A stretch of DNA of 64,000 nt from assembly GCF_007556815.1 (NCBI RefSeq), contig NZ_CP041745.1:868001-932000 (forward strand). Reading direction: 5' to 3'. Source of the stretch: Paraburkholderia megapolitana. Lineage in GTDB: Bacteria; Pseudomonadota; Gammaproteobacteria; Burkholderiales; Burkholderiaceae. Numbering within the stretch: position 1 is the stretch's first letter; every line of letters begins with the position of its first letter. Below the pieces are notes generated by a model. It did no database searches, was not told the DNA's origin, and saw only the letters and a program-made list of their open reading frames with translations. A program made the translations under genes and the position numbers. Of this stretch, positions 33,044 to 64,000 are shown piece by piece.

Positions 33044-33072
33044 TTGACAAAGGTCTGGCGCGGCACTAATTT
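33044..33072 (+). promoter_or_regulatory. Promoter of the siderophore operon
   Basis: A perfect -35 TTGACA (33044-33049) is followed after exactly 17 bases by TAATTT (33067-33072), about 180 bases before the MbtH start. The Fur-like box lies 14 bases downstream of the -10, so bound Fur would cover the transcription start region. This looks like a housekeeping (sigma-70) promoter. Confidence 0.65.
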
Positions 33073-33085
33073 ACGCGTCTTAAAC

Positions 33086-33104
33086 AACAATGATTCTCAT
33101 TTGC
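33086..33104 (+). promoter_or_regulatory. Fur-like box upstream of mbtH-like gene
   Basis: AACAATGATTCTCATTTGC matches the 19-base Fur consensus (GATAATGATAATCATTATC) at 13 positions, including the central ATGAT and TCATT half-sites. It lies just after the predicted -10. Iron repression of the siderophore genes is therefore likely. Confidence 0.7.
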
Positions 33105-33249
33105 ACCAAGCCGCATAGCGGCAGGTCATGAGAATGCATGAGTTTTCCGGGCTAACCGGCCCGCCTCGTTTCCGTCGCGCGGCATAGTCGATGAGAAGCT
33201 GAATGATACTTATTTCGCATAGCATTTCGCACATTTACGGAGCGTTCGA

Positions 33250-33495
33250 ATGAGCTGGGGTGACGAGAACACCAATTTTCACGTCGTGATCAACGACGAA
33301 GAGCAGTACTCGATCTGGCCGGACTACAAGGCCATCCCGGCCGGCTGGCGCGAAGCGGGCAAGTCGGGCAAGAAGGACGAATGCCTCGCGTGGATCGACG
33401 AGGTGTGGACTGACATGCGTCCGCTCAGCCTGCGCCAGGCAATGGCCGAGAGCGATGCGAACCCCGCCGCCCGTTCGGGATCGCCGGCGGCCTGA
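33250..33495 (+). CDS. MbtH-like NRPS accessory protein
   Basis: 81 aa. All hallmark residues are present: [19 protein letters not shown], then [18 protein letters not shown]. MbtH proteins bind NRPS adenylation domains and are needed for their folding or activity. The last about 15 residues are an Ala/Ser-rich extension. It is the first gene of the cluster, ATG 33250, and its stop is 3 bases before the thioesterase start. It is the equivalent of orbH in ornibactin clusters. Confidence 0.95.
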
Positions 33496-33498
33496 CCG

Positions 33499-34311
33499 AT
33501 GACTGTTACCGTTGGACCGTCCGCCGTGACGCCGTCCGTTACGTTGATCTGTCTCGCGCACGCCGGCGGCAGCATTGCGCTGTATCGCGAATGGCAGCGG
33601 CGTCTGCCGTCGTCGGTGCGCGTGCATACGCTCGAATTGCCGGGCCGCGGCGCCCGCCGCATGTTGCCCGCTCATACCGAATGGCCTGCATTGATCGACC
33701 AGCTCTGCGCGGATCTGCGCGGGCACGTCGATACGGCGCGTCCGTTCGCGGTATTCGGTCACAGCATGGGCGCGCTCGTCGGACTCGAACTGATTCACGC
33801 GCTGCGCCAGCGTGACGGCTGTTCGCCGGTGTGGTTCGGTGCGTCCGCCACGGTCGCGCCGCTGCGGCGCAAGACCGAAACGCACTGGATCGATGCGCCG
33901 CACGACCTCATGGTCGACATGCTGCACAAGCGCGGCGGCACGCCCGCCGAGCTGCTCGCCGACCGCGATTTCCTCGACCTCGTGATGCCGGCGATGCGCG
34001 CGGATTTCCATCTGTGCGGGCTGCATCCGCGGCATGTGGCGCAGGCCGCGCGCGCGCCGCTCGACTGTCCGGTGTCGGTGCTGATCGGTCGCGACGATAG
34101 AGCGACCGCCAATGCCGACGACGTCGCGGCCTGGTCGCACGAAACGCGCGGCCCGTGCACGACGCACACGTTCGACGGCGGCCACTTCTATCTCGACGAC
34201 ACGCCGGACCGGGTCCTCGCGTGCGTTGCCACTTCTCTCGCGGGCGCGCTTGCGCCACCGATTCACGTCACGCCTGCGCAACCGACCAAAGGCGAAGCAT
34301 GGATGCATTGA
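33499..34311 (+). CDS. Stand-alone (type II) thioesterase
   Basis: 270 aa alpha/beta hydrolase. The nucleophile is Ser89 in FGHSMGALVG, the acid Asp lies in LIGRDDRAT, and the catalytic His229 is in GGHFYLDD. CLAHAGGS at the start is the family's substrate-channel motif. Type II thioesterases free NRPS carrier domains from wrong or stalled acyl groups. The gene overlaps the hydroxylase start by 13 bases. Final release of the peptide is probably by a different domain beyond the right edge. Confidence 0.9.
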   Translation: MTVTVGPSAVTPSVTLICLAHAGGSIALYREWQRRLPSSVRVHTLELPGRGARRMLPAHTEWPALIDQLCADLRGHVDTARPFAVFGHSMGALVGLELIHALRQRDGCSPVWFGASATVAPLRRKTETHWIDAPHDLMVDMLHKRGGTPAELLADRDFLDLVMPAMRADFHLCGLHPRHVAQAARAPLDCPVSVLIGRDDRATANADDVAAWSHETRGPCTTHTFDGGHFYLDDTPDRVLACVATSLAGALAPPIHVTPAQPTKGEAWMH

Positions 34312-35267
34312 TCAGCAATGATGTGCTCGGCGAAAGCGTGCTCGAGCAAAACGGCACCCGCGTACTGGTGGTGAGCGCGAAGGAGCGCATCAGCCTCGAC
34401 ACCTGCCTGCCGCAGATCCACGCCATCGCCGCACGGGCGAAGCCGGTTTACGGCGGCGTGTTGCTGCGCGGCTTCGACGCACTCGGCGCGGGCGGCCTCG
34501 ACCGCTTCGTCGCGAGTTTCGGCTCGCCGCTGCTTACGTACGAATTCGGCTCGACGCCGCGCAGCCGTGTCGAGAAGGGCGTGTATTCGTCGACCGAGTA
34601 TCCAGCCGATCAATGGATCGACCAGCACAACGAGCAGTCGTACACGCGCAAGTGGCCCGCGACGATCTGGTTCTACTGCGAAATCGCGGCAGAGCAGGGC
34701 GGGGCCACGCCGATCGCCGATAGCCGCAAGGTGTACGAGCGGCTCGATCCCGCGCTGCGGCGTCTGTTCGCCGAACGCGGCGTGATGTACGTGCGCAATT
34801 ACGGCAACGGACTCGATCTGCCGTGGGAGCAGGTGTTCGGCACCGACGATCGCGACGAGGTCGAAGCGTATTGCCGCGTGCACCGGATCGACCTCGAATG
34901 GCTCGACGACGGCGACGCGCTGCGCACGAAGCAGGTGTGCCAGTCGGAGCTGCGTCATCCGGTGACGGGCGAAACGGTCTGGTTCAACCAGGCGCATCTG
35001 TTCCACATTTCGAATCTGCCGCTGACTTTGCGCGAAACCCTGCTCGATGTGGTCGATGAAGACCGCCTGCCGCGTAACACGTATTTCGGCGACGGCACGC
35101 CGATCGACCTCGCATTGCTCGACGAAATCCGCGCGGTGTATCGCGACACGATGCTGTCGTTCGACTGGCAGCCCGCCGACGCGCTGCTGCTCGACAACAT
35201 GTTGATGTCGCATGGCCGCGCGCCGTTCTCGGGCAAGCGGCGCGTGCTGGTCGCGATGACCGGCTGA
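34299..35267 (+). CDS. SyrP-like (TauD-fold) aspartyl beta-hydroxylase
   Basis: 322 aa Fe(II)/2-oxoglutarate dioxygenase. The iron triad is His110-x-Glu112 (in QHNEQSY) plus His305 (in MSHGRAPF), with the 2OG Arg shortly after. HNE instead of HxD is the SyrP-type signature. SyrP hydroxylates carrier-bound Asp at the beta carbon. The second NRPS gene opens with an adenylation domain carrying an Asp code, so hydroxyaspartate, an iron ligand, is the expected product. The start at 34299 overlaps the thioesterase gene. Stereochemistry cannot be read from sequence. Confidence 0.85.
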   Translation: MDALISNDVLGESVLEQNGTRVLVVSAKERISLDTCLPQIHAIAARAKPVYGGVLLRGFDALGAGGLDRFVASFGSPLLTYEFGSTPRSRVEKGVYSSTEYPADQWIDQHNEQSYTRKWPATIWFYCEIAAEQGGATPIADSRKVYERLDPALRRLFAERGVMYVRNYGNGLDLPWEQVFGTDDRDEVEAYCRVHRIDLEWLDDGDALRTKQVCQSELRHPVTGETVWFNQAHLFHISNLPLTLRETLLDVVDEDRLPRNTYFGDGTPIDLALLDEIRAVYRDTMLSFDWQPADALLLDNMLMSHGRAPFSGKRRVLVAMTG

Positions 35268-35367
35268 CCGCCGTCGCGCGACGCGCCCCGGATGCCGTAC
35301 GCGCCGCGCCCCCATTCACTTCCGTATGCCTCCTACGCCAGGACCCCAGCAAAAGGATCGACCGATC

Positions 35368-36804
35368 ATGACGCAATCACTGCCACCGCTCTTTGCCTTC
35401 TCGCCATTCGACGGGCAGAGCGAACACTACGTCTCGCTCATCAAGCAGTTCTCCGCCGCGCATGCGTTCCGCAGCGCGACTGTCGACGAACTGCTGCTCG
35501 ACGACGACTACCATCGTCGCCCGCTGCGTCCCGAGGACTTCGAGTTCCTGAAGTTCATGAAGCCGGTGCGGCCGCATAACGTGAGCCGCCTGCCGGCGCT
35601 CGCGTCGAACCGCACCCTGCTGTCGATTTACGAGCTCGACGTGATGCGTCTGCCGCGCAGCGGCGAGCCCGCCGAATGGCAGCACTTCTCCGACTTCTAT
35701 CGCGACGACACCAAAGTGCTCGGCGCGCAGATCGCGCCGTTCCTCGAAGCGTATGCGTTCGAATACCTGGCCGAAGGCGTCGATGGGACCGAAGACGTGT
35801 CGTCGGCAAGCGCACGCCTTGCGCAGATCGTCGACGACGAAACCGCGTTCTGGAGCGAAACCTTCGGCCGGCTGATGCGCAACGACTACCTCGAGGAAGG
35901 CTTGCGCTTCATCATGGTTCAGCGCTGGGCGCTCGCGCTGTCGAAGCGTCGTGCGGTCGCGCAGGCCGCGGCGAGCGGTTTCTTCGACATGCTGCCGCCG
36001 CAAGAGCGGCCGTCGCTCACGGGCGATCTGCCCGACGACGCGCTGCTCGAACGGGTTGCCGCCGCCTGTGGCGTGACGCGCCAGCAGCATGCGTACTGGC
36101 AGTTCTATCTGCCGACCAGCATGGCGAAATGCAACCTGCTGTATGCGCTCGCGCGCCGGCCGGACCGCGCGTTCGGTTTCATCGGCGCGGTGTTTGCGGC
36201 CGAAGCCGAATGGGTCGCGTTCGGTCTCGCGCTGGAACGGGCGTGCGCGCATCTGCAACCGGCCGCGCGCCAGCCCGCTGATGCCGCCGCACGCAAGGCC
36301 GAACTGGTCGCGCGTTTCGCGAACGCGCAGCGGCGCATCGCCGAGCGCTTCGGCGCGGCCGCGTCGGGTCAATGTGTGCAGGGCGCGATTGCCGGACAGC
36401 GACTGGCGGAGCGCGGCCGCTGGGATCTCGGCGAACAGCTACGCTGGTTGTCGTCGATTCGCCGCTACGTCGAATTCGCGCAGCGCATCAGCACGCGCAT
36501 CGATGCCGAGTGTCCCGACATCGATCGCGAAACCTTCATCGAGCCGCACGAAATGTGTTCGACGACGCACGTGCACAACGATCACCGGCTCGTCACGATC
36601 CAGGAAGGCGAGATGCTGTTCTGGGGCAACGTCGGCATGCAGTTGAAGATGAACCAGGGCGACATGGTGCTGATTCCCGATGGCCGGCTGCACGGGTCGA
36701 CGGTGGTGTCGGGCGAATGTACGTATCACCAGCCGATCATTCCGGACGACTGGGTTCAGGCGCTCGTCGCCGAACTCGAGCAGCCCGCGGAAGCGGCTGC
36801 CTGA
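35368..36804 (+). CDS. SznF-like protein with C-terminal cupin, candidate graminine (N-N bond) synthase
   Basis: 478 aa from ATG 35368 (AAGGA upstream). The layout matches SznF, the streptozotocin N-nitrosourea enzyme: N-terminal region (1-130), central helical heme-oxygenase-like domain (about 130-330) and C-terminal cupin (about 380-470). The cupin iron triad is His401-x-His403 (HVHNDH) and His442 (GRLHGST); the 39-residue spacing between the second and third His is the same as in SznF (His409, His448). In the central domain I could not find the expected Glu/His/Glu/His/Asp di-iron set. It lies next to the YqcI/YcgG gene; the two together match the grbD/grbE pair required for graminine in gramibactin. 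Which letter belongs to which gene is not certain to me. Confidence 0.8.
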   Translation: MTQSLPPLFAFSPFDGQSEHYVSLIKQFSAAHAFRSATVDELLLDDDYHRRPLRPEDFEFLKFMKPVRPHNVSRLPALASNRTLLSIYELDVMRLPRSGEPAEWQHFSDFYRDDTKVLGAQIAPFLEAYAFEYLAEGVDGTEDVSSASARLAQIVDDETAFWSETFGRLMRNDYLEEGLRFIMVQRWALALSKRRAVAQAAASGFFDMLPPQERPSLTGDLPDDALLERVAAACGVTRQQHAYWQFYLPTSMAKCNLLYALARRPDRAFGFIGAVFAAEAEWVAFGLALERACAHLQPAARQPADAAARKAELVARFANAQRRIAERFGAAASGQCVQGAIAGQRLAERGRWDLGEQLRWLSSIRRYVEFAQRISTRIDAECPDIDRETFIEPHEMCSTTHVHNDHRLVTIQEGEMLFWGNVGMQLKMNQGDMVLIPDGRLHGSTVVSGECTYHQPIIPDDWVQALVAELEQPAEAAA

Positions 36805-36962: not shown

Positions 36963-38090
36963 ATGACGATGGAATCAAGCAATGTCGGCGTGACGAATTT
37001 CGACGGCTTCGTGGCCGAAGACTGGAAAAGCCGCATCATCGACGGCCGCGCGACCGGTGCCGCGGTGACGCTGCCCGCGTGGCTCGACGCGTCGTACGAG
37101 ACGCTGCGCGAACAGGTAATGCATCCGGAGTACCCGTGTTTCTTCGGCACGATGGCGGAAAAACGCGGCGAGATGTTCTACGCGTTCGTGAACGGCAAGG
37201 ACATCGGCACGCTGCCCGCGACGATGCAGACGTTCGCCGAACTCGCGTCGCTGCCGCAGTACCGGAAGAACAACATCGCGGTGTTTTTCGAGCCGGACGC
37301 GCAGCCGCTCACGCATGACACGTATCACGATCTGTTCTGGAACATCCTGCAGACCCTGCATAACGTCGACCCGGACCCGAGCGCCGCGGACCAGCCCGAA
37401 CCGTCGCACGAAGACTGGGAGTTTTCGTTCGCGGGCGTGCAGATGTTCGTCGTGTGCGCATGCCCGTCGTTCAACGAGCGGCACAGCCGCAATCTTGGGC
37501 CGGGCATGGTGCTGCTGTTTCAGCCGCGTAGCGTGTTCGTCGATACGATCACGAACAAGGTGATCGGCCGCGAGGCGCGCAACCAGGTGCGCAAGCGCCT
37601 CGAGACGTGGGATGACGTGTCCGCGCATCCGGACCTCGGCTTCTACGGCGATCCGGGCAACCTCGAGTGGAAGCAGTACTTCCTCTCCGACGACAACACC
37701 GCTGCCGCCGATCGTTGTCCGTTTTTGCGCAGGCAGAAAGACGCCGTTGTTCCTGCGACGGCGCAGGTATCGCAGGTTCCGCACGTGCCTCATGCGCAGC
37801 CGGTGCTACAGGTGCCGCAGGTTCACACCTCGCACGCCGCACACGCCGCGCAGCCGCTGCATGGCCACCGCGACACGCCGCATCTGCCGCATGCCCATCC
37901 GCACCCGCATGCCCACGCTCATGCGCAACAGTCCGCCGAAGCCGAGGCGAGCCACGCACCCGGCACGTCGTGGCGGCCGGTGGTGTCCGGCGAGCGCGCG
38001 GGTGTGTTCGAACATGGCGATGCGCGGCGCGCTGCCGAGCGGCCTCACGCAGGTGCTCTCGACAGGCACGACGGCAACAACGACGAATAG
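36963..38090 (+). CDS. YqcI/YcgG-family (heme N-oxygenase type) protein with His-rich tail, graminine pathway
   Basis: 375 aa. Residues 1-258 form the YqcI/YcgG domain, including YPCFFGTMAEKRGEMFYAF, FVVCACPSFNERHSRNLGPGM and the closing DRCPFLR with Cys252. The family includes GntA, a heme-dependent guanidine N-hydroxylase of guanitoxin biosynthesis, so N-oxygenation of arginine or a derivative is plausible here. Residues about 260-375 are an extra low-complexity tail with more than 20 His (for example PHAHPHPHAHAHAQ), not part of the family domain, probably metal binding. Start 36963 (or 36969) follows a GAGAG stretch. Next to the SznF-like gene it forms the graminine gene pair. Confidence 0.75.
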   Translation: MTMESSNVGVTNFDGFVAEDWKSRIIDGRATGAAVTLPAWLDASYETLREQVMHPEYPCFFGTMAEKRGEMFYAFVNGKDIGTLPATMQTFAELASLPQYRKNNIAVFFEPDAQPLTHDTYHDLFWNILQTLHNVDPDPSAADQPEPSHEDWEFSFAGVQMFVVCACPSFNERHSRNLGPGMVLLFQPRSVFVDTITNKVIGREARNQVRKRLETWDDVSAHPDLGFYGDPGNLEWKQYFLSDDNTAAADRCPFLRRQKDAVVPATAQVSQVPHVPHAQPVLQVPQVHTSHAAHAAQPLHGHRDTPHLPHAHPHPHAHAHAQQSAEAEASHAPGTSWRPVVSGERAGVFEHGDARRAAERPHAGALDRHDGNNDE

Positions 38091-38152
38091 GACGTAGCGG
38101 TCATTTCGTCACGTGAAAAACGCGTCCCCACGGCTCGACGGTCACTGTAAAT

Positions 38153-38171
38153 AAGAATGATTGTCATTGTC
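38153..38171 (+). promoter_or_regulatory. Second Fur-like box, upstream of the exporter gene
   Basis: AAGAATGATTGTCATTGTC matches the 19-base Fur consensus at 14 positions and lies 81 bases before the exporter ATG. It overlaps TAAAT (38148-38152) and CGTG (38171-38174), 18 bases apart, which resembles promoters of PvdS/OrbS-type iron-starvation sigma factors. A separate iron-controlled transcript for the transport genes is likely. Confidence 0.7.
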
Positions 38172-38251: not shown

Positions 38252-39949
38252 ATGTCCCTGCTCTGGTATCTGGTCCGCCATTCACGCTGGGTGCTGGTGG
38301 TCGCACTGCTGACCAGTCTTGTCAGCGGCTTCGGCAACGCGGCACTGCTGGCGCTGATCAACCAGGCGCTCAGCGCACCCGCCGACAGCATCACCAGACT
38401 CGGTTTGCAGTTTCTGGTGATCGGGATTGTCGTGCTCGTTACGCGCACGCTGTCGGCGACGCTCTTCATGTACCTCGGTCAGAAAGCGAAGGCGACACTG
38501 CGCATGCACACGATCCACCGCCTCGGTGAAGCGTCGTTTCCGCATCTGGAGAAGCAGGGTGCGGCGAAGTCGCTCGCGATCCTTACGCAGGATCTCGACC
38601 AGATCGTCATTTTCTTCACGAGCATGCCGACGCTGGCCATGCAAAGCGCGGTGATCCTCGGCTGTCTCGTGTATCTCGGCTACCTGTCGTGGCCGATCCT
38701 CATTGCCGCTATCGTGACGATCTTCATCGGCGCGCTCGGTTTTCGCCTTGTGAATGCGCGCGGTATGTTCCATCTGCGCGCGTCGCGGCGTCGCGAGGAC
38801 GACCTCGTCAAGTATTTCCGCGCGCTGTTCGACGGTGCAAAGGAACTGAAGCTGCATCGTGCGCGCAAGCAGGCCTTCATCGACGACACGCTCGCGACCA
38901 ACGTCGAAGCCGTGCGCGTGCAGCGTACGCGTGGCTACGTGCTGTACGCGGCCGCGGCAAGCTGGGGCAGTTTCGTGCTGTTCGCGTTCATCGGCATTAC
39001 GATCTTCGTGCTTGCGCGGCGTTTCGTGCCGGTCGATCTGCACGTGATGTCCGGCTACGCGATCGTCTTCGTCTACATGATTGCGCCGATCGACGGCGTG
39101 CTCTCGGCGATTCCGAACATCGGGTCCGCGCGCGTGGCACTCGAGCGCATCGAGCAGGTCAACGCGGAACTGCCGATCGAACAGACGCTCGACGCCGCAC
39201 CGGCCACTTCATTCGACAGCATTGCGCTCGAAGGCGCCACGCACAGCTACTTCCGCGAAAAGGAAAACGAGGTCTTCACGCTCGGCCCGATCAACCTGGC
39301 GTTCCGTCCTGGCGAACTCGTGTATCTGATCGGCGGCAACGGCAGCGGCAAGACCACGCTCGCGAAAATGCTGGTCGGCCTGTATGTGCCGGAAAGCGGG
39401 CAGGTGCTGCTGAACGGCAAGCCGGTCGACGAAGCGCATCGCGACATCTATCGTCAGCATTTCTCGGTCGTGTTCAACGACTTCTATCTGTTCGACAACC
39501 TGCTCGGCATGCGCGTGGACGGACTCGATCAGCACGCGCAGCAACTGCTGCGGGAGCTGCAGCTCGATCACAAGGTCACGGTGAAGGACGGCGCGTTTTC
39601 GACGATCGATCTCTCGCAAGGTCAGCGCAAGCGGCTCGCGTTGCTGGTCGCGTATCTCGAGAACCGGCCGTTCTACGTGTTCGACGAATGGGCCGCCGAC
39701 CAGGACCCGCTGTTCAAGGAAGTGTTCTACAAGCGCCTGCTGCCCGAACTGCAGGCGAAGGGCAAGACGGTCCTCGTCATCACCCACGACGACCGCTACT
39801 TCCATCTCGCCGACCGCTATATCAAGCTCGATTTCGGTCAGGTGGTCGAACAGGGAAGCGGCAGCGAACTGCAGGCGGCAGGCCACCACGGTGCCACGCA
39901 ATCGCATGCCGGGCACGGCGCGTTTGCTGCGCCTGAAGCTGCGACCTGA
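38252..39949 (+). CDS. Cyclic-peptide-type ABC exporter (SyrD/PvdE/OrbE-like)
   Basis: 565 aa fused half-transporter: six transmembrane helices (residues about 10-310) then a nucleotide-binding domain with Walker A GGNGSGKTT (from residue 361), signature LSQGQRKR (from 454), Walker B FYVFDEWAADQDP and switch His in VITHDDRY. LSQGQ and the DEWAADQDP element are the marks of the SyrD/PvdE/OrbE group that moves siderophore precursors across the inner membrane. The start has AAGGAA. It is the first gene after the second Fur box. Confidence 0.9.
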   Translation: MSLLWYLVRHSRWVLVVALLTSLVSGFGNAALLALINQALSAPADSITRLGLQFLVIGIVVLVTRTLSATLFMYLGQKAKATLRMHTIHRLGEASFPHLEKQGAAKSLAILTQDLDQIVIFFTSMPTLAMQSAVILGCLVYLGYLSWPILIAAIVTIFIGALGFRLVNARGMFHLRASRRREDDLVKYFRALFDGAKELKLHRARKQAFIDDTLATNVEAVRVQRTRGYVLYAAAASWGSFVLFAFIGITIFVLARRFVPVDLHVMSGYAIVFVYMIAPIDGVLSAIPNIGSARVALERIEQVNAELPIEQTLDAAPATSFDSIALEGATHSYFREKENEVFTLGPINLAFRPGELVYLIGGNGSGKTTLAKMLVGLYVPESGQVLLNGKPVDEAHRDIYRQHFSVVFNDFYLFDNLLGMRVDGLDQHAQQLLRELQLDHKVTVKDGAFSTIDLSQGQRKRLALLVAYLENRPFYVFDEWAADQDPLFKEVFYKRLLPELQAKGKTVLVITHDDRYFHLADRYIKLDFGQVVEQGSGSELQAAGHHGATQSHAGHGAFAAPEAAT

Positions 39950-39973
39950 AGCCCCCACCCGAACGAATTCATC

Positions 39974-40813
39974 ATGAACGCAAACCCATCGCTGCTCGAA
40001 GCCGACGCAGTCGTCACCGAAACAGGCGTCGCGACTGCCGTGCCGATGTACGAACTCGACGACGTGTCGTTCCGGGTGGGCGAGCGCACGTTGCTGCATC
40101 CGCTCACGCTCACGCTGCCGACGCAGCGTGTGTGCGGCCTGATCGGCCACAACGGCTCCGGTAAATCCACCTTGCTCAAGCTGCTTGCGCGCCAGCAGGA
40201 ACCGGCGAGCGGCACCGTGCGCTTCGGCGGACGTTCGCTGCGCGAATGGGACAACCGCGCGTTCGCGCGCAAGGTCGCGTATCTGCCGCAGCAGCCGCCG
40301 GCCGCCGAAGGCATGACCGTGCGCGAACTGGTCGCGCTCGGGCGCTACCCGTGGCATGGCGCGCTCGGTCGCTTCACGGGGCGCGACAGCGAGAAGGTGC
40401 ACGAAGCGATGCAGCTCACCGACCTCTTGCGCTTCGCGGATCGCACCGTCGACAGTCTGTCGGGCGGCGAGCGGCAGCGCGCATGGATCGCGATGCTGGT
40501 CGCGCAGGACAGCGAATGCCTGCTGCTCGACGAACCGATTTCGGCGCTCGACATCGCGCATCAGATCGAAGTGCTCGATCTCGTGCGCAATCTGAGCCAG
40601 CAGCGCGGCCTCGGTGTCGTGGTCGTGCTGCACGACATCAACATGGCCGGCCGCTTCTGCGACGATCTGATCGCGTTGAAAGGCGGCAGCCTGCTCGCGA
40701 GCGGCACGACCGCCCAGTTGATCGAGGGCGAGACGCTCGGTGCGATCTATGGTGTGCCGATGGGTACCGTGCCGCATCCGCGCGGCGGCCTGCCGATCAG
40801 TTTCGCGTACTGA
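39974..40813 (+). CDS. Ferric-siderophore ABC importer, ATP-binding protein (FecE/FepC/OrbC-like)
   Basis: 279 aa. Walker A GHNGSGKST (from residue 58), signature LSGGERQRAWIAML, Walker B CLLLDEPISALDIAHQ and switch His in VLHDINMA. This sequence style is that of the FecCD-type iron-siderophore importers. Its permease and periplasmic partners are not in the window, so they are expected beyond the right edge. It follows the exporter by 24 bases and ends 55 bases before an intrinsic terminator. The N-terminal about 25 residues are an unconserved leader. Confidence 0.9.
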   Translation: MNANPSLLEADAVVTETGVATAVPMYELDDVSFRVGERTLLHPLTLTLPTQRVCGLIGHNGSGKSTLLKLLARQQEPASGTVRFGGRSLREWDNRAFARKVAYLPQQPPAAEGMTVRELVALGRYPWHGALGRFTGRDSEKVHEAMQLTDLLRFADRTVDSLSGGERQRAWIAMLVAQDSECLLLDEPISALDIAHQIEVLDLVRNLSQQRGLGVVVVLHDINMAGRFCDDLIALKGGSLLASGTTAQLIEGETLGAIYGVPMGTVPHPRGGLPISFAY

Positions 40814-41027: not shown

Positions 41028-41149
41028 ATGTCACTGATCGACATGCAGCGCCGGCAGGCCAGTGGGGCCGGCACGCAGTGCGCGGTCCGCAAGGCCGGCT
41101 GTGCGTCGGCGAACGATGCTGTGACGCCTCGCATGAAGGAGCGTGTGCT

Positions 41150-41153
<4 letters not shown>
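41028..41153 (+). CDS. 41-aa leader ORF coupled to the first NRPS gene
   Basis: ATG at 41028 is preceded by GAGGAGAG, a better ribosome binding site than that of most genes here. The ORF begins MSLIDMQRRQASGAGTQ, has two Cys and a basic C-terminus, and its stop TGA overlaps the NRPS GTG start as GTGA. Ribosomes ending here could start directly on the NRPS gene. The peptide resembles nothing I know; it may serve only for coupling. Confidence 0.45.
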
Positions 41154-45751
<4,598 letters not shown>

Positions 45752-57800: not shown

Positions 57801-60800
57801 GAGGAATTGCAGACGGCGTACGCACAGGCCGAACGTCGCGAGACAGTCGCACTACCCGCACCATCGACATCATGGAGTGCATGGGTACGCCGCGTGCACG
57901 ACTACGCACACACACCCGCGGTACAAGCCGAAGCTGAAAAATGGCAGCAGGTATCGGAAGCACTCGACGCCGCGCATCTGCCGTTGCTCCCTGCCACCAA
58001 CACGCGCATCGCCGACAGCGAAACGATCGAATGGACGCTCGCCGCCGACCGCACGCGCGAACTGCTGCAAACCGTGCCGCGCGCCTATCGCACGCGCACC
58101 GACGAACTGCTGCTCGCCGCACTCGCGCAGGCGCTCGGCGCCTGGAGCGGGCTCGATGAAATCGCCATCGAACTCGAAGGACACGGTCGCGAGGATCTGA
58201 TCGACGGCGTCGATCTGAGCCGCACTGTCGGCTGGTTCACGACACGCTTCCCGGTGACGTTGCCGGCGAAACAGGCCATCGCGGGGACCGCGCTCGTCGC
58301 AGTGAAGGAGCGCCTGCGCGCGGTGCCGAACAAGGGCATGCATTGGGGCTGGCTCGATGCCGCACAAGGTCAGCGTCGCGCGCCAGTCAGCTTCAACTAT
58401 CTGGGCCGTTTCGACCAGTCGCTCGACGAAGATTCGCGCTTCGCGTTCAGCGCCGAACGGGCAGGCAGCAGCCTCGGCGCCGCCGCGCGTCTCGACTACG
58501 CGCTCGATCTGAACGGCCTTGTCAGCGGTGACGAACTGGTGCTGCGCTGGCGTTTCGATCCCGCGCGAATCGATCGTGCGACGGTGGAACGACTCGTTGC
58601 CGCGTTCGATCGCGAAGTGCTCGCGATGATCGCGCATTGCGTCGTGGCGGCACCTGGCGCGAGCGCGTCGGATTTCCCGCTGTCCGGTCTCGACCAGGCG
58701 CAGTTGCAGTCGCTCGATCTCGCACTTGGCGGGGTCGCCGATATCTACCCGGCCACGCCGTTGCAGCAGGGGCTGCTGTATCACAGCCAGTTGCAGCAGG
58801 GGCAAGGCGTCTACTTGAATCAGCTGCAGTTGACACTGCGCGGACCGCTCGATGCAGCCGCACTGCGCGACGCGTGGCAGGCCGCAGTGGCGCGCCACGA
58901 AATGCTGCGGACGCGCTTCGAATGGCGACATGGCGGCAACGCGCTGCAGATCGTCGAGCGTCAGGCGGTGCTGCCGTTCGCGATGCACGACTGGAGCGAC
59001 GTGTCGGATCTCGCCGACTACGACGTGCGCCTCGCTGCATGGCGCGCAGAAGATCTGTCCGCGGGCGTCGAACCTTCGCGCGCACCGCTGATGCGCATCA
59101 ACGTATTCCGTCGTCCCGATGGCGGCCACGATCTGGTGCGCACGCATCATCACGTGCTGACCGATGGTTGGAGCGGCGCACGGCTCTTCGCCGAAGTGCT
59201 CGACGACTATGAGCGTAGAACGCAGCGCACCGACACGAGCCGTGCGAAGGCCGCGCCCGCATCGCCGCCGCCGTATCGACGCTACGTCGAATGGCTCGCG
59301 AAGCAACCCGATCCGCGCGACTGGTGGATCGAACGTCTCGCGGCCGCCGACGATGCCGCGACGCTCACCGGTAGTCTCGCCGCACCGCAGGCCGACACGA
59401 CGGCGACGAACGTGCAGCAGAAATTCACAGTGACGCTCGATGCCGCACTCGATGCGCGCGTACGTCGTGCCGCGCAGCGTCATCAGGTGACGCTCAACAC
59501 GCTGATGCAGGGCGCGTGGGCCGTGCTGCTCGCGCGGCTCGGCGGCAAACGGTCGGTTGCGTTCGGTGTCACGGTGTCGGGGCGACCCACAGCACTCGCG
59601 GGTTCGGACGAGATGTTCGGCTTGTTCATCAATAGTCTGCCGGTGTTTATCGGCGTGCCCGGCGATGCAAGCGTGCCTGCGTGGCTGCGTTCCTTGCAGG
59701 ACTACAACACGCAGATGCGCGAGGTCGAGCACACGCCGTTGTCGTCGTTGCAGCAGTGGGCGGGCCGCAGCGGCGATGCGCTGTTCGACAGCCTCGTCGT
59801 GTTCGAGAACTACCCGGTCGCCGCGCGTTCGGGAACGCCCGCGCAGGACGCGTTGCGCATCGACGGTGTGGATGCCGTGGAGCGTACGCACTATCCGCTG
59901 ACGCTGACCATCTTGCCGTCGAACGGGCTCGATCTGCATTGGGGCTGGGACAACCGACGGCTGGCGCGCGCCCAGGTCGAAGCGTTGCAGCGGCAGTACG
60001 TTGCGCTGCTCGCTCAACTGAGCGACGACACGCCGCGCCGGCTTGGCGATCTCGCGGTGCCGCACGATGCGATGCAAGCGGAGGCGCTGCCCGCCTACAC
60101 GTTCAAGCCGATGCATGCGCGCTTCGAAGAGCAGGCCGCCCGCACGCCGCAACGCATCGCGGTGCGTCAGGGCGAGACGTCGGTCGATTACGCATCGCTT
60201 GCGAACTGGGTGGTCTCGCTCGATGCGCGACTGCGCGACAGCGGCGTTGCGCGTGAAGAACGCGTGGCCGTGTGCATGCGTCGCGCGCCGGCGATGCTCG
60301 CCAGCATGCTTGCGGTGTGGCGCAGCGGCGCGGTCTACGTGCCACTCGATCCGGCGTTCCCGCTCGATCGTCTGCAGCACATGCTCGTCGATGCGGGCGT
60401 CACACGCGTGCTGACCGACGCCGATGGGACGCAACGGCTCGGTGCGTTGCTCGACGGGCGCATCGCGATCGATGTCGGCAATGTGCACGATGTGCCGCCA
60501 GCTACGGTTGCCCCCGCTGCATTGCCGTTCGTGGATCAGCAACTGGCGTACGTGATTTACACGTCCGGTTCGACCGGTCGGCCGAAGGGTGTTGGTGTGC
60601 CGCACGGTGCGCTCGACCGGTTGCTCACGAGTGTCGGTCACGTGCCTGGGCTCACACCTGACGACGTGCTGCTGTCGGTGACGACCGCATCGTTCGATAT
60701 TTCGCTGAACGAGTTCTGTCTGCCGCTCGTGAGCGGTGCGTGCATCGAACTCGCGGATGCCGCAACAACTGGCGACGGTGCCGCGCTCGCGCGCCTGATC

Positions 60801-61922
60801 GACAGCAGCGGCGCAACGTTTCTACAACCGACGCCGAGCGGCTGGCGTCTGCTGCTCGAAGCGGGCTGGACAGGTCCGGCAAGCGGCAAGCTGGTGGGCC
60901 TCGCGAGCGGTGAGCCGTTGCCGCCCGATCTGGCGGAAGCGCTCAATGCGCGCGGCGTCGAAGTGTGGAACATGTACGGTCCAACCGAGACGACGATCTG
61001 GTCGACCGGTGGCCGGGTGCCCGCGCACGCACCGGTGACGATCGGCCGTGCGTTGCACGCGACCACGTTGCGCATCGTCGATGCGAGCGGCCAGGCGACG
61101 CCCTCGGGCGGCACCGGCGAGCTGTGTATCGGCGGCGAGAATCTCGCGCGCGGCTATCTCGGCCGGCCGGGTGTAACGGCGGAGCGCTTCGTGCCCGATC
61201 CGTGGGGCGCGCCGGGTGCACGCATGTATCGCACCGGCGATTTGTGCCGCGAGCGCCCCGATGCGACGTTCGACTGTCTTGGCCGCGTCGACCAGCAGGT
61301 GAAGCTGCGTGGTTACCGGATCGAACCGGGCGAGATCGAAGCGGTGTTGCGCAGCCACGAAGGCGTGCTCGACGCGGCGGTGACGCTCGTTGCGGCGAGT
61401 GGCGGAGCGGAGGCACGGCTCGTCGGTTACGTCGTGAGTGCGAGCGATGCGCTGCCCGACGACTGGCGCCGCATGCTCGCGGGACGACTGCCCACGTACA
61501 TGATTCCGGCGGCGCTGCATCGCGTCGACGCGCTGCCGCGTACCGCGAACGGCAAGCTCGATCGCAACGCGCTGGCGCGGCTCGAAGTTGCGAGCGACGC
61601 GTCGTGGGTCGAACCGGCCAGCGACAGCGAACGGCTCGTCGCGCAACTGTTCGGCGACATGCTGGGCGTCGCGCGAGTCGGTGCGCACGACGATTTCTTC
61701 GCGCTTGGCGGTCATTCGCTGGCGGCCGTGCGTGTCGTGGCGCGCTTATCGGAGCGCGCAGGACGCAAGGTCGAACTCAAGTTGCTGTTCGAACACCCGA
61801 CGCCTGCTTCGCTCGGCGCGCTGCTCGATACGCATGACGTGAACACTCAACAGGGTGCAAGCGAGGCCGGCAGCGATGCCGACATGCAGGCGCTCGACGA
61901 TCTGTTCGATGCACTGGACTGA
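45834..61922 (+). CDS. NRPS 2: A(Asp)-T-C-A3-T-C-A(Thr)-T-C-A5-T-E-C-A6-T, five modules
   Basis: 5,362 aa from ATG 45834. Approximate positions: A2 45850-47330, T 47400-47540, C 47700-49080, A3 49130-50690, T 50740-50860, C 51025-52300, A4 52400-53900, T 53970-54080, C 54260-55560, A5 55610-57080, T 57130-57260, E 57380-58660, C 58730-60050, A6 60090-61560, T 61630-61760. Codes read by eye: A2 DLTKLGHVG (Asp), A3 DVWNVAMVH (Thr-like class, altered), A4 DFWNVGMVH (Thr), A5 DVHRTGLVA (unassigned), A6 DINQLSMIW (unassigned, Gly-like frame). The only epimerisation domain (HHLAVDGVSWR) follows module A5. It begins with A, so it takes its acceptor chain from the C domain ending NRPS 1. The long antisense reading frames across it are shadows. 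Confidence 0.92.
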   Translation: MQDYRFDTDFLPARVARLAVQTPATTALVDTDGTLDWATLWAWSGRLAAALADAGTQSGERVALALPRSAALVASILAVWRVRACYVPLDPALPTARLRWQAEDCGARTVIASDASVAGWLPDGVRTLDPAATRESQSDATHTFAADAADERAFAWPAYVIYTSGSSGRPKGVVLSHRALSAYLQGVSERLPEGIRSAAYLSTPAADLGHTALFGALWHGWTLHLIDAQVAADPDAFATYMQTQAIDLLKIVPSHLDALMQAQSPEAVLPGRCLLVGGEAAPTRLAERIAQLRPECRLINHYGPTETAVGVLTRSGAESRSATLPLGTPLAHVRARVVDADGNSVPKGATGELCIGGASVADGYLNRPSLTAERFVPDAEGNGTRVYRTGDRSRRLPSGEYAFLGRIDDQVKIRGYRVEPEEIAARLRQADGVRDAIVIARADSEDAPLRLVGYVTSSVPLDGDTLRATLAADLPDYMVPSSIMVLAALPLTANGKIDRAALPAEGTVTSAATNDVAASTHVEPRNDAERTLADVWKQVLKRDDIGVTDNFFEIGGDSILSLQIIAKARRAGLKLTPKQMFEHPTIEAAARIAQPMTAAPAVAAPSAPQARPDDAWFAQAGVTRDTVEAVYPATPMQQGLLFHGMLDSVPGLYIGQLRLTLDALRIDDMQSAWQTVVARHPVLRTRFFWPAGGEPLQVVERNATIAFDVHDTIALAADEYDTRFAATRDAIAARGFDPVHAPLMRVDVFTRADGACDLLWTHHHALTDGWSTAQVIADVARAYGAIVAGETPDQTPGAPYANYVQWLRSQPDTGAFWRARLAALDDPARLVDALGPDFHAAVSKAGAAGYKDSDHAPGLLTHELGATRHAALLHAARRARVTLNTLVQGAWALVLSRFASRPQVVFGTTVSGRPADLSDAQEIVGLFINSLPLWVDVAPDAPLATWLAALQDRNAELREVEHTPLANLRQWTGLSGDALFDSLVVFENYPLDEAVNAANAALGVRAVEALDRTHLPLTLVVAPRDAAAGANGLTMQWRWDATRIEADGIARLARHVDAALDRIAAALTSSHEAHDAHATPIRLRDIALDVEASTDAPPAQFAFEPALARIAAQVGAQPDAVALVFPQPDGAVSTLTYSELHAWSARIARACAAVVTKTRRDGERRIGIAMGRTPALVAAILGVLRADAAYVPLDPAYPDDRLRDIALDAGLDAIVTTDAERARFAALVPGIDLIDAVSADRNGEHAHVAIDRVPHPEQLAYVIYTSGSTGRPKGVGITHANLTRLFTAGDRFYTFGPSDVWPLFHSYAFDVSVWELFGSLTHGGRLVVVPHDIARDAPALQRLLREQRVTVLNQTPSAFMPLCEIDAEIARRDPLATMETLRYVVFAGEKLDPPALANWFVAREENGIPVPALINMYGITETTVHVTFRSLGRGDIVRAEAPSVIGGPLSDLTLTVLDPFGEPVPVGAAGELHVGGAGLARGYLGRPGLTAARFVPDPAGAPGARVYRSGDVARRLASGDIDYLGRNDSQMKVRGFRIEAGEVEAVLRTHADVRNVVVLVRDQRLVTWIVPAAGSALTADALRAFAARTLPAHMVPSAYVLLDSLPVTQNGKLDRRALPAPEDGAAGAPYVAPRDATEAALASIWQQVLGVERVGAHDDFFLLGGHSLLAVRVISAIRATFGHAPTLRAVFEQPVLADLAASVRDAQRTGEASAIVAPAADATKDVVNLPLSAAQTRLWFLWKLDPHSAAYNVNGALQFDGALDVAALQGALDELVARHPALRMRFGETQGVPYQTIGAGSRCALLVADLCDEQDVATALDTQLAELARKPFDLTVDAPIRATLLRTAADRHVLHLVLHHIVSDDWSVGILFADFAAAYRRRLSGAVQPHAANTAADAAYRDVLRAQAARLADGRDAAQLAYWRDALAAESGSDDVLALPYDRTRSGARRYVRGARTHVRVPANTANALRTQSRERRTTLFITLLAAFNGLLYRYSGQRDIRVGVPLAGRDAPGAADVVGFFVNTVVIRTAPDGEMRAERLVDDVRERLLAAHANQDVPFASVVNAVQPERNLAQTPLFQVLVNHQQHHDFGTLFGDALRVTPREVESGEAQFDLMLNIAETADDGALDLTLTYAQDVFDATTIDRLANNFVGLLTQWSATPHTPLASFKLAEQADSQAVVHDRKDPLDIVSRFIEQAAQHGDAVALSDGATQITYAQLDAWSRAIAAELLLQGVHAETRVGVAMQRSAGLVAALLGILRAGAAYVPLDPSYPAERLAHIVSDAQLGPIVADAASLEQHAALFAAHATLDADALRDRKLTASAGADFRAPHPEQLVYVIYTSGSTGLPKGVGITHRNVARLFDATAARFAFDAHDVWTLFHSYAFDFSVWEIFGALVHGGRLVIVPHWTAREPAAFHRLIRDERVTVLNQTPSAFTQLIHEDENNTLDSLRAVIFGGERLDPAALARWADGARARGVLPALVNMYGITETTVHVTHRDIDATALHDARSVIGAALDDLTLHVLDADLNRVPLGASGEMHVGGAGLARGYLGRAALTAERFVPDPFGAPGARLYRSGDLARRLADGDLEYLGRNDHQVKIRGFRIELGEIQAALLAHPDVREAAVLALDTAGGDRRLVAYVVPTNPDLDAQGNAEDWQTWLSARLPAHMVPSAFVALARFPLTPNGKLDRRALPAPETVATTSAAVAPSTPAEETLLAVWRNVLRRDDIGVTDNFFVIGGDSILSLQIVAKAREAGLHLTPRQVFEEPTVERLAKAAQMSTQVATAALPDDERSANSELWRALGLTPEHIEDVYPATPLQTGLLYHALAEPEQRAYLNQLRLTLSGPLDRAAMQAAWQAALERHAVLRTRFEWRHGSTRSSAGSQIVHRRLVLPFAVHDWSAATDYDARLTEWRERDLAAGIELDVAPLMRTALFIRDAQTVDLVWTHHHLLLDGWSVAQLLGEILRDYRSRTDGATPAPATFVAPAPYRRYVDWLQQSADDAATEAWWRKRAAQIEEPATLTSSLGAPAVIEPGAHAVRRALDTSLGERLTDVARRHEVTLNTLMQGAWAVVLARYGHRRGIAYGTTLAGRPAHLPGVEQMLGLFVNTLPVWIDVDPNAQVGDWLRTLQRDLTDLRQYEHTPLSRVQQWTGRSGDALFDSLVVFENYPVDPAARGADDALRVSATESVDPTHYPLALSIIPRERISLEWAWDGERIDRSTIERLSLHYVEVLEQLAAGEGVRVGALTLGSVGEGQAAQQYAFASLGEQLGAQAARSPDAIAVRCEDASLSYAQLDAWSGAIAARLVARGVRAETRVGLCVTRGPAMLAALLGVIRSGGAFVPLDPEYPAARLAQMIEDAAIVQVLADDASAQRVADVLAGCEVVPVAFDGVAVVSPAVTLHPDQLAYVLYTSGSTGKPKGVAVSHGSLWTHLQDFLQTYRITSADTVLHSSTINFDVALHETLPALLMGATVEMRGVQPWDLQSLSERLVQRQVTFARIPTALWQQWQRSAPARESLALRQVTVGGEALPGDALGRWQSGPLGGIRLDNLYGPTETTVAALYRETLTEDVQQVTVPIGKPYPGRTARVIDAFGDAAPAGGLGELCIGGPTVARGYLGRAAQTAERFVPDPYGEPGSRQYRSGDLCRMRADGTVEFLGRLDQQVKLRGQRIELGEIEAVMRQCAGVREAAVIVTGAGERQRLAGYIAGDVNTDVVQRELEQKLPAYMVPSTLTVLEKLPAMPNGKLDRAALPAPQAREREQVVPRNATETSLLSIWSAVLGRDDLGVTDNFFEVGGDSIQSLQIIARAREAGLKLTPRQVFEHPTVERLALRAEAVEAGAQDEAEITTELPLTPIQQWFFERYPQGESHWNQSVLLKVEGRLDPQALEQAVNALGARHDALRLRFGTTQEGWRQRVIPAAAAEEHTLIHRETLNSLEELDAAGQRVQSSLSLTEGPLWRVGYFEAPQNETRLLVAIHHLAVDGVSWRVLLEELQTAYAQAERRETVALPAPSTSWSAWVRRVHDYAHTPAVQAEAEKWQQVSEALDAAHLPLLPATNTRIADSETIEWTLAADRTRELLQTVPRAYRTRTDELLLAALAQALGAWSGLDEIAIELEGHGREDLIDGVDLSRTVGWFTTRFPVTLPAKQAIAGTALVAVKERLRAVPNKGMHWGWLDAAQGQRRAPVSFNYLGRFDQSLDEDSRFAFSAERAGSSLGAAARLDYALDLNGLVSGDELVLRWRFDPARIDRATVERLVAAFDREVLAMIAHCVVAAPGASASDFPLSGLDQAQLQSLDLALGGVADIYPATPLQQGLLYHSQLQQGQGVYLNQLQLTLRGPLDAAALRDAWQAAVARHEMLRTRFEWRHGGNALQIVERQAVLPFAMHDWSDVSDLADYDVRLAAWRAEDLSAGVEPSRAPLMRINVFRRPDGGHDLVRTHHHVLTDGWSGARLFAEVLDDYERRTQRTDTSRAKAAPASPPPYRRYVEWLAKQPDPRDWWIERLAAADDAATLTGSLAAPQADTTATNVQQKFTVTLDAALDARVRRAAQRHQVTLNTLMQGAWAVLLARLGGKRSVAFGVTVSGRPTALAGSDEMFGLFINSLPVFIGVPGDASVPAWLRSLQDYNTQMREVEHTPLSSLQQWAGRSGDALFDSLVVFENYPVAARSGTPAQDALRIDGVDAVERTHYPLTLTILPSNGLDLHWGWDNRRLARAQVEALQRQYVALLAQLSDDTPRRLGDLAVPHDAMQAEALPAYTFKPMHARFEEQAARTPQRIAVRQGETSVDYASLANWVVSLDARLRDSGVAREERVAVCMRRAPAMLASMLAVWRSGAVYVPLDPAFPLDRLQHMLVDAGVTRVLTDADGTQRLGALLDGRIAIDVGNVHDVPPATVAPAALPFVDQQLAYVIYTSGSTGRPKGVGVPHGALDRLLTSVGHVPGLTPDDVLLSVTTASFDISLNEFCLPLVSGACIELADAATTGDGAALARLIDSSGATFLQPTPSGWRLLLEAGWTGPASGKLVGLASGEPLPPDLAEALNARGVEVWNMYGPTETTIWSTGGRVPAHAPVTIGRALHATTLRIVDASGQATPSGGTGELCIGGENLARGYLGRPGVTAERFVPDPWGAPGARMYRTGDLCRERPDATFDCLGRVDQQVKLRGYRIEPGEIEAVLRSHEGVLDAAVTLVAASGGAEARLVGYVVSASDALPDDWRRMLAGRLPTYMIPAALHRVDALPRTANGKLDRNALARLEVASDASWVEPASDSERLVAQLFGDMLGVARVGAHDDFFALGGHSLAAVRVVARLSERAGRKVELKLLFEHPTPASLGALLDTHDVNTQQGASEAGSDADMQALDDLFDALD
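55481..55997 (+). repeat. Direct repeat, copy 1 (start of A5 domain)
   Basis: This segment, spanning the end of a condensation domain and the first about 130 residues of A5, is nearly identical in DNA and protein to 63484-64000, at a constant offset of 8,003 bases. Differences are scattered substitutions plus one 25-base divergent patch in the linker. It marks a duplicated or gene-converted NRPS module. Confidence 0.9.
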
Positions 61923-62008
61923 CATGACGCACATAGCGATGCGAAACGCGCTTCATCCATCCGACCCACTGACTTCGCACGTGCGGTGTACCGCATGTGC
62001 TTCGAACC

Positions 62009-64000
62009 ATGCCGAGTGACACAACCTTGACGCTTGACCGCCGCACGCCCGGCGACGCGGATTCTGCGAAACCCGCGGGTTCTGCGAATTCCGCGAGTTC
62101 CGTGACTCCGGACCAGCCCGCCGACGCGTCCGCGCAGCAGCGCGCCTATGCAATCGCGCGGAAATACGCGGCGTTGCCGGAAGACCGGCGACGTCTCTTT
62201 CGCGAGAAGGCGCAGCAGCAGGGCATCGATCCCGCGCGCTTGCCGGTGGTGCCGCTCGTTTCCAGTCACGCATCGCGCTATCCGCTGTCGCATGCGCAGG
62301 AGCGTCTGTGGTTTTTGTGGAAGCTCGATCCGCAGAACCCCGCGTACAACCTCGCGCGCGCGGTGCGGCTGACAGGGGCGCTCGATGTGCCCGCGTTGCG
62401 TCGCGCGATGGCGGCGCTTGTCGCGCGGCATGGAGCGTTGCGTGCGCGGTTCGTCGAAGAGCAGGGCGTCGCATCGCAGTGGATCGATGCGACGGCCAGC
62501 TACAGCTGGCGTGAAATTGCGCTCGACGATCCCGACGCGTTGCGCGACACGCTGCGTGAGCTGGCACGCGAACCGTTCGATCTTTCCGCCGGGCCGTTGC
62601 TGCGCGCGAGTCTCGTCGCACTCGGTGGCGAGCGTCACGCGTTGCTGATCGCCACCCATCACATCGTGTCGGATGGCTGGTCGCAGGGGCTGCTGGTGCG
62701 CGAGCTGGTCGCGTTGTATCGCGCGGCGCGCCAGGGCGACACCGCGGATCTCGCTGCGGCTTTGCCGCCGCTGCCGATCCATTACGGCGATGTGGCCGCA
62801 TGGCAGCGCGAATGGCTCGACAACACGATCGAGAGCGATCTCGCGTACTGGACGCAACAGCTCGGCGGCGACCGGCCGGTGCTCGAACTGCCGCTCGACC
62901 GTCCGCGCAATGCGGTGCGCGGCATCGATGGCGGGCGTTGCCGGATCGATGTCGATGCATGGCTGGCGGGCCGGTTGCGCGAACGCGCGCGCGGTCGGCG
63001 TACGACGTTGTTCACATTGCTGCTCGGCGCGTATGCGGTGCTGCTGCATCGCTACGGAGGACAGCGGCATGTGCGGATCGGCGTGCCTTCGGCAGGGCGA
63101 GATCGCAGCGAGACCGAAGGGCTGATCGGTTACTTCGTGAACACGCTGGTGATCGAAGCGGAAGTGGATGGCGCACTGCCGTTCGATGCGCTGCTGGATA
63201 CGCTGCATACGCGCGTGCTGGACGCGCAGGCGCATCAGACGGTGCCATTCGGCCGCATCCTCGACGAGCTGAAAATTGCGCGCGACCTTGGCCGTTCGCC
63301 GCTGTTTCAGGTGATGTTCAATCTCGAGCAGGCGGGCGGCAATGAAGCTGCGGCGACGATGCCTGGTGTGACCGTCGAAGCCGAAGAAGGCGGTACGGAC
63401 ACGGCGCGCTTCGATCTCGTGCTGAACGCGGTCGACGATCGCAGCGGGCTGAAGCTGATGTTCAACTATGCGACTGATGTGTTCGATCGATCGACGATCG
63501 AGCGGTTGTCGGTGCATTACGTTGAGGTGCTGGAGCAACTGGCGGCGGGGGATGGGGTGCGGGTGGGGGCGCTGACGCTGGGTTCTTCTGCTGGAGTGGA
63601 TGTCGCACAGCAGTACGCGTTTGCCTCGCTGGGCGAGCAGTTGGGCGCGCAGGCAGCGCGTTCACCGGATGCAATCGCGGTGCGCTGCGAGGACGCCTCG
63701 TTAAGCTACGCGCAACTCGACGCATGGTCGGGTGCGATTGCTGCACGCCTGGTCGCGCGCGGCGTGCGCGCCGAAACACGCGTGGGCCTGTGCGTGACGC
63801 GTGGCCCGGCGATGCTCGCGGCGCTGCTCGGCGTGATCCGCTCGGGTGGCGCGTTCGTGCCGCTCGACCCGGAGTATCCGGCCGCGCGTCTCGCGCAGAT
63901 GATTGAGGATGCGGGGATCGTGCAGGTGCTCGCCGATGACGCGAGTGCACGACAGGTAGCCGATGTACTGGCGGGTTGTGAAGTGGTGCCGGTGTCGCTC
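62009..64000 (+). CDS. NRPS 3 (partial): C-A7..., continues past the right edge
   Basis: 664 aa visible from ATG 62009, 86 bases after NRPS 2. The first about 45 residues are a Ser/Ala-rich leader. A helical linker (YAALPEDRRRLFREKAQQQGIDPARLP) follows, typical before LCL-type condensation domains. The C domain spans about 62275-63560, with THHIVSDGWS and YPLSHAQERLWFLWKLDP. The adenylation domain starts near 63600 and is nearly identical to A5 of NRPS 2, so the same monomer is expected; the specificity residues are beyond the edge. No strong ribosome binding site is visible at the start. Confidence 0.9.
   Translation, partial: MPSDTTLTLDRRTPGDADSAKPAGSANSASSVTPDQPADASAQQRAYAIARKYAALPEDRRRLFREKAQQQGIDPARLPVVPLVSSHASRYPLSHAQERLWFLWKLDPQNPAYNLARAVRLTGALDVPALRRAMAALVARHGALRARFVEEQGVASQWIDATASYSWREIALDDPDALRDTLRELAREPFDLSAGPLLRASLVALGGERHALLIATHHIVSDGWSQGLLVRELVALYRAARQGDTADLAAALPPLPIHYGDVAAWQREWLDNTIESDLAYWTQQLGGDRPVLELPLDRPRNAVRGIDGGRCRIDVDAWLAGRLRERARGRRTTLFTLLLGAYAVLLHRYGGQRHVRIGVPSAGRDRSETEGLIGYFVNTLVIEAEVDGALPFDALLDTLHTRVLDAQAHQTVPFGRILDELKIARDLGRSPLFQVMFNLEQAGGNEAAATMPGVTVEAEEGGTDTARFDLVLNAVDDRSGLKLMFNYATDVFDRSTIERLSVHYVEVLEQLAAGDGVRVGALTLGSSAGVDVAQQYAFASLGEQLGAQAARSPDAIAVRCEDASLSYAQLDAWSGAIAARLVARGVRAETRVGLCVTRGPAMLAALLGVIRSGGAFVPLDPEYPAARLAQMIEDAGIVQVLADDASARQVADVLAGCEVVPVSL
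63484..64000 (+). repeat. Direct repeat, copy 2 (start of A7 domain, cut by the window)
   Basis: Second copy of the segment at 55481-55997, offset 8,003 bases. The adenylation part differs at only a few residues in the visible stretch (for example Ala to Gly in IEDAAIVQ/IEDAGIVQ). The repeat continues beyond the window. Confidence 0.9.

Follow-up and report, generated by a model that had tools for sequence, protein, structure and literature searches.

The window analyzed here is a stretch of 64,000 nucleotides (C3:868001-932000) from a genome of 7,627,590 bases in 3 contigs. From position 33250 onward it carries a set of genes, all on the + strand, which according to our analysis very likely encode the biosynthesis, export, and uptake of the siderophore megapolibactin. 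An earlier reading made without database searches (the sequence-only reading) had listed Fur boxes, an MbtH protein, a thioesterase, a hydroxylase, an SznF-like protein, a YqcI/YcgG protein, an exporter, an ATPase, and three nonribosomal peptide synthetases (NRPSs) in one direction, and every one of these elements was found on this strand. The cluster opens with genes for an MbtH-like protein (33250..33495; PF03621, E = 2.8e-23), a stand-alone, type II thioesterase (33499..34311; PF00975, 1.5e-40), and a TauD-fold Asp beta-hydroxylase (34299..35267; PF02668, 9.4e-45). The last of these had been labeled SyrP-like, which we correct, as it matches the gene in the mobD position of Tistrella (67% identity over 228 aa), a homology to a named member that places it among the TbetaH-Asp hydroxylases. 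They are followed by GrbD (35368..36804), GrbE (36963..38090), an exporter of the SyrD/PvdE cyclic-peptide type (38252..39949; TIGR01194, E = 2.8e-144, 482 bits against a cut-off of 286), and a ferric siderophore import ATPase (39974..40813). The latter, described earlier as FecE-like, is nearer to FhuC (NF007863, 425 bits, short of the 433-bit cut-off) than to FecE (253 bits). The three NRPSs, composed of condensation (C), adenylation (A), thiolation (T), epimerization (E), and thioesterase (TE) domains, are NRPS1 (41150..45751; C-A1-T-C, with a GTG start picked from sequence), NRPS2 (45834..61922; A2-T-C-A3-T-C-A4-T-C-A5-T-E-C-A6-T), and NRPS3 (61997..67558 in window numbering, L009:1997-7558; C-A7-T-E-TE, with the TE at the C terminus). 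NRPS3, and with it the cluster, extends past the window end at 64000, beyond which the sequence-only reading had proposed to extend the sequence. Downstream of it lie, in order, the genes for a FhuA-like TonB receptor (L009:7814-10030), FhuD (L009:10079-11053), and FhuB (within L009:10342-13056), so that a FhuA-like receptor, FhuD, FhuB, FhuC, and the exporter are all present; the next Pfam-matched gene beyond FhuB encodes an OpuAC protein on the opposite strand.

Every + strand 19-mer of 104 kb was scored for Fur-like sites against a Fur consensus, with a threshold of at least 13 of 19 letters. Five positions in four distinct places reached this threshold, compared with about 1.25 expected from 20 first-order Markov simulations. 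Three of the four places lie directly upstream of cluster genes, namely 33086..33104 before the MbtH gene (13 of 19), 38147..38171 before the exporter gene (two overlapping 19-mers with 13 and 14 of 19), and 67694 just before the receptor gene (at least 13 of 19), while the fourth is at 7359. Because of this placement at the MbtH, exporter, and receptor genes, control of the cluster by iron through Fur is likely.

GrbD matches SznF (E = 5.7e-33), and its whole chain, including the HDO domain, is predicted by modeling to adopt an SznF-type fold. By SznF ligand numbering, with the letters checked on the SznF chain, the cupin iron ligands H407, H409, and H448 are kept in all 32 GrbD-like rows aligned. 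The full six-ligand diiron set of the HDO domain, a region that could be aligned only with uncertainty, is found in 0 of the 32; in this GrbD differs from SznF, the streptozocin enzyme (PDB 6m9r, 6vzy). GrbE, a candidate guanidine N-hydroxylase of the YqcI/YcgG family (YqcI_YcgG, E = 3.3e-66), resembles AglA of the same family (PDB 9uba; 7.6e-34) in its core and differs from it by a C-terminal tail of 117 aa with 18 His (window 37737-38087). This tail is the most His-rich among the free-standing tails of 36 loci compared, where the other tails vary; in 12 of the 36 loci the GrbE frame instead continues for more than 2,000 residues into an NRPS-like protein. The proteins at 35368 and 36963 both fall inside the groups expected for them, in agreement with the sequence-only reading of an iron-regulated graminine siderophore cluster with a grbD/grbE pair. 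The proteobacterial GrbD group, to which the GrbD of P. graminis and the homologue from Tistrella belong, also includes the GrbD of the window (22 rows, support 100/98), and GrbE falls in the matching group of its own tree (21 rows, 92/93). Forty of 144 same-genus genomes, our own among them, have a GrbD (E <= 1e-30). The best 80 of 102 GrbD relatives, corresponding to 79 loci, were kept, and since all 29 GrbD loci tested, made up of 28 from these 79 and of L115, have a GrbE homologue (E <= 1e-8), the pairing is not due to chance. For gramibactin, it has been published that graminine originates from arginine and that both grbD and grbE are needed. Adjacent GrbD and GrbE homologues, graminine-code A domains, and genes for a siderophore receptor and transporters are the features by which graminine (C-diazeniumdiolate) siderophore clusters are recognized, and the cluster has them all. 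The product is predicted to be an Fe(III)-binding peptide that would be able to release nitric oxide.

C and E domains were located by a Pfam search of the genome and A and T domains by their motifs. A-domain codes were extracted by alignment to a PheA template, with nine letters read and the tenth (K) added by convention. In order, the codes are DILQLGVIW, DLTKLGHVG, DVWNVAMVH, DFWNIGMVH, DVHRTGLVA, DINQLSMIW, and DVHRTGLVA, of which we take the first and the fourth to specify Gly and Thr. As a control, the script reproduced all seven published tistrellabactin codes (PMC10391617). By these published codes, A5 and A7 carry the graminine code DVHRTGLVAK in all nine letters read, code 3 is identical to the Ser code, and code 2 is one letter off the Asp code (PMC10391617). 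The predicted order of the seven modules is therefore Gly-Asp-Ser-Thr-Gra-Ala/Ser-Gra, where Gra denotes graminine and residue 6 is assigned by analogy. The T domains after A2, A4, A5, and A7 contain GGDSI and those after A1, A3, and A6 contain GGHSL; and E domains follow A5 and A7. A YPATPxQxGLL start is common to the C domains after A2 and A4 and to the one behind the first E domain; by their motifs, the C domains after A1, A3, and A6 read as ordinary, LCL-like domains. From these T-domain motifs, E domains, and C-domain types, D residues are predicted at positions 2, 4, 5, and 7.

This prediction agrees at every position, in both residues and D/L pattern, with megapolibactin, a family of siderophores containing D-threo-beta-hydroxyaspartate, L-Ser, D-allo-Thr, D-Gra, and L-Ala (or L-Ser), with 3-hydroxy C10-C14 acyl chains added by a C-starter domain, and made by modules that are colinear with the peptide (PMC6771848). 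The published cluster of P. megapolitana shares with ours the backbone, the D/L pattern, the C-starter, the grbD/grbE homologues, the graminine A domains, and the uptake genes, and no difference was found in a comparison with its published description (PMC6771848). We therefore conclude with high confidence that these are the genes by which megapolibactin is made, exported, and taken up again. The host is most likely Paraburkholderia megapolitana, and the cluster is very probably already known rather than new. The skeleton acyl-Gly-OHAsp-X-Thr-X5-X6-X7 (OHAsp, beta-hydroxyaspartate) proposed earlier was right and can be completed with Ser as X, Gra as X5 and X7, and, by analogy, Ala or Ser as X6. 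The suggestion that the product might be an undescribed member does not hold, as the product prediction matches megapolibactin; still, an unusual metabolite class had been picked out correctly by reading the sequence without database searches.

Several points weigh against this identification. The Gly and Thr assignments of codes 1 and 4 are tentative and draw in part on a comparison with P. graminis, whose codes include DILQIGLIW once and DFWNIGMVH twice and whose gramibactin contains Gly and two Thr (PMC9679993). Code 6 has, as its main changes from the Gly-type code of its relatives, N where they have L and S where they have G. No identical code was found in the literature searched, and Ala/Ser at this position is suggested by analogy with megapolibactin. 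The C-domain subtypes (starter and dual) are putative calls from motifs, and identity to the published locus is deduced from its description. In addition, GrbD of the window groups with that of G048 and not with gramibactin-type GrbD (p-AU 0.009 in the approximately unbiased, AU, test, for a group named after the tree was seen), and for this reason the history of GrbD and the NRPS architecture are not fully parallel.

The unmatched sixth code would suit a sister species with a megapolibactin-like cluster, whose product, with another sixth residue or another acyl chain, would be a new congener. We consider this unlikely, because known megapolibactins already vary in both respects (PMC6771848) and because a megapolipeptin-type gene set elsewhere in the genome points to P. 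megapolitana. A reading as gramibactin cluster has in its favor that P. graminis shows the same gene order, with MbtH, TE, GrbD, GrbE, exporter, and FhuC 62-90% identical to ours, and yet the window's seven A domains, C-A(Gly)-T-C start, Ser in place of Thr, and altered sixth code make this identity very improbable; it was rejected since domains and codes differ. NRPSs, an exporter, Fhu-type uptake, and an Asp hydroxylase occur in ornibactin/malleobactin-type clusters too, and a search for PF13434 (Lys/Orn oxygenase) matched the genome six times, each time at or above the family cut-off of 21.3 bits, which would suit a hydroxamate siderophore. However, these matches are short and weak (20-43 bits) and lie outside the window, and the search is unspecific, with matches also in 12 of 14 control genomes. 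No ornithine N-hydroxylase is present among the cluster genes scanned with Pfam, two A domains have the graminine code, and the GrbD/GrbE pair is in place. A hydroxamate cluster was thus rejected and has a negligible probability, in line with the earlier argument against a plain ornibactin.

For the megapolibactin cluster the following pathway may be proposed. Iron starvation would lift Fur repression at the three sites. GrbE, as a YqcI/YcgG-family N-hydroxylase, would oxidize the guanidine of L-arginine, and GrbD, whose first catalytic domain has the SznF fold without diiron ligands and whose cupin has three iron-binding histidines, would rearrange the hydroxylated guanidine by joining Ndelta and Nomega to give L-graminine. 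A 3-hydroxy fatty acid would be loaded by the C-starter domain, whereupon the three NRPSs would add Gly, Asp, Ser, Thr, Gra, Ala or Ser, and Gra. The TauD enzyme would hydroxylate Asp at Cbeta, and the two E domains, with the T- and C-domain types, would set the D configuration at residues 2, 4, 5, and 7. Release by the TE would give a linear peptide or a lactone, to be secreted by the exporter and, after binding of Fe(III) by two diazeniumdiolates and one beta-hydroxyaspartate, re-imported as the ferric complex by the FhuA/FhuD/FhuB/FhuC-like set. For the linear Ala forms with 3-OH-C10, C12, and C14 chains, computed m/z values are 954.44, 982.47, and 1010.50, shifted by +15.99 with Ser and by -18.01 in a lactone; calculated likewise, gramibactin B has 126.10 left for its acyl group, in agreement with C8. 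The locus offers a complete view of one family member, with a full uptake set and a GrbD of predicted SznF fold whose first domain lacks the diiron ligands.

The two graminine modules resemble each other closely over a limited stretch. A tract of about 2.2 kb (55588..57825, + strand), covering A5, T, and the N-terminal part of E, has a nearly identical counterpart in module 7 (about 63.6 kb to 65.9 kb, window numbering): when divided into 15 bins of roughly 150 bp, the tract shows 86-100% identity in 14 bins and 79% in one, compared with 46-76% in the flanking bins. In a tree of 19 domains, the two graminine A domains are sisters in five of seven two-graminine clusters, the exceptions being Burkholderia sp. 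4M9327F10 and Pandoraea iniqua. A tree uniting the domains in first position from four clusters was rejected (p-AU 1.2e-66), where, as in the GrbD test above, the group had been named after the tree was seen. The conversion test covered 8 of 17 genomes with a match to the C domain of module 7 (C7), that is, the window's own and seven others; of the nine left out, six are cut at a contig end beside C7, G102 and G103 lie on further contigs, and G020 has a 52% match. In seven of the eight clusters, the two A cores of a genome are closer to each other than to their positional equivalents in other genomes, the exception being G064 (86% within, up to 87% elsewhere). The opposite, positional pattern is seen for the upstream C domain in 8 of 8 and for the C-terminal part of E in 7 of 8 (not in G043), whereas the N-terminal part of E behaves like the A core in six (not in P. 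graminis and G043).

As read from these comparisons, the pattern of modules 5 and 7 is that of gene conversion. In six draft genomes the contig begins within about 530 bases of C7, at the tract start, as would be expected from a repeat, and a repeat collapsed in short-read drafts could imitate conversion; this explanation is weakened because our own genome (3 contigs) and G066 (2 contigs) show the pattern as well. It seems probable to us that gramibactin-type lines have undergone repeated gene conversion of A, T, and, mostly, the N-terminal part of E between their graminine modules, keeping the pair alike in each species, while the surrounding C domains, like the C-terminal part of E, retain their positional history. 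A-T-E(N) would then be the unit that is naturally exchanged, and selection would favor equal loading of the two iron ligands. Concerted evolution of NRPS domains is described in two publications (PMC4256081; PMC9205934). No title or abstract on its occurrence in graminine clusters was found in a literature search beyond whose reach most subscription journals lie. The homogenized blocks suggest natural breakpoints that may be usable in module swapping.

Around the cluster, an Acyl_transf_3 family acyltransferase is encoded on the opposite strand directly upstream (31695-32864, -), and a member of the PF04655 aminoglycoside/hydroxyurea kinase family lies at 2286-3137 (-; 2.8e-81). An open reading frame of 41 codons (41028-41153), overlapping with its stop codon the GTG at which NRPS1 starts, was set aside as a cluster gene, since among the 21 genomes searched it matched its own alone and none of 20 relatives. 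Genome-wide, 35 condensation-domain matches are spread over several NRPS loci. At G000:C1:1736000-1778739 of the same genome, a PfaD/PUFA (polyunsaturated fatty acid)-synthase-type gene set adjoins NRPS genes in a megapolipeptin-like arrangement, with a PfaD protein that has a carrier domain and with a cupin protein, a pyruvyl transferase, a thiamine pyrophosphate enzyme, and a phosphopantetheinyl transferase as neighbors. In P. megapolitana LMG 23650, the megapolipeptin cluster has been reported with this PfaD neighborhood (PMC13291983). Across 144 same-genus genomes, PfaD matches at E <= 0.001 occur in 93 but exceed the cut-off in only two (G000 and G016), the rest being weak partial matches. 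With G016 taken to be P. acidicola, which thus has PfaD too, this marker by itself does not identify the species.

When eight clusters of gramibactin-like architecture were read, with modules counted as amino-acid-type A domains (a pattern that misses acyl-ligase-like loading domains), five had the order Asp-Thr-Thr-Gra-Gly-Gra, G064 had five A domains, G043 had eight, and Gly-Asp-Ser-Thr-Gra-X-Gra was found only in the window. The eight codes of G043 (L140-L142) read Gly-type, Ser, Asp, Thr, Gly, Gra, Gly, Gra; no product matching this graminine siderophore was found in the literature searched, and candidates for an undescribed member lie in clusters such as this one.

In the tistrellabactin cluster of Tistrella mobilis (L061, L093, L094), GrbD is 49%, GrbE 54%, and the hydroxylase 67% (over 228 aa) identical to the window proteins, and the graminine and Ser codes are the same as ours. 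The Tistrella GrbE continues into an NRPS, whereas ours is free-standing. The host is an alphaproteobacterium, its cluster has one graminine A domain together with a hydroxamate, and mobD has been published as a free-standing Asp beta-hydroxylase (PMC10391617). The gramibactin cluster of P. graminis C4D1M (L015, L095, L096) is closer, with the same gene order, a common Gra-X-Gra end, and GrbD, GrbE, exporter, and FhuC 79%, 76%, 78%, and 82% identical. No hydroxylase gene was found in the 40 kb read of its cluster region (L095-L096), and the sole P. graminis homologue at E <= 1e-30, 52% identical, is on another contig (G002:C69:46405-47289). Gramibactin has six amino-acid A domains (Asp-Thr-Thr-Gra-Gly-Gra) against seven in the window, with Thr where the window has Ser and, between the graminines, Gly where it has Ala/Ser, corresponding to a change in residue-6 specificity from a DILQLGLIW-like code to DINQLSMIW. 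The two systems also start differently. In all six gramibactin-type clusters inspected (P. graminis, P. kururiensis, G066, G081, G064, and G063), the first NRPS protein consists of an AMP-ligase-like domain, T, and C. These loading domains, found by tblastn, are 24-27% identical to A1 of the window, while the C domain is 60-65% identical to the second C of NRPS1. In the P. graminis loading protein, Pfam matched AMP-binding, PP-binding, and Condensation but not AMP-binding_C. The window has C-A(Gly)-T (41150 to about 44.3 kb) in place of the acyl-ligase-like domain and T, ahead of the shared C domain, and an exchange of the start module at NRPS1 is possible. This would fit a 3-hydroxyacyl-Gly start through a C-starter domain in megapolibactin, as opposed to direct acyl loading in gramibactin.
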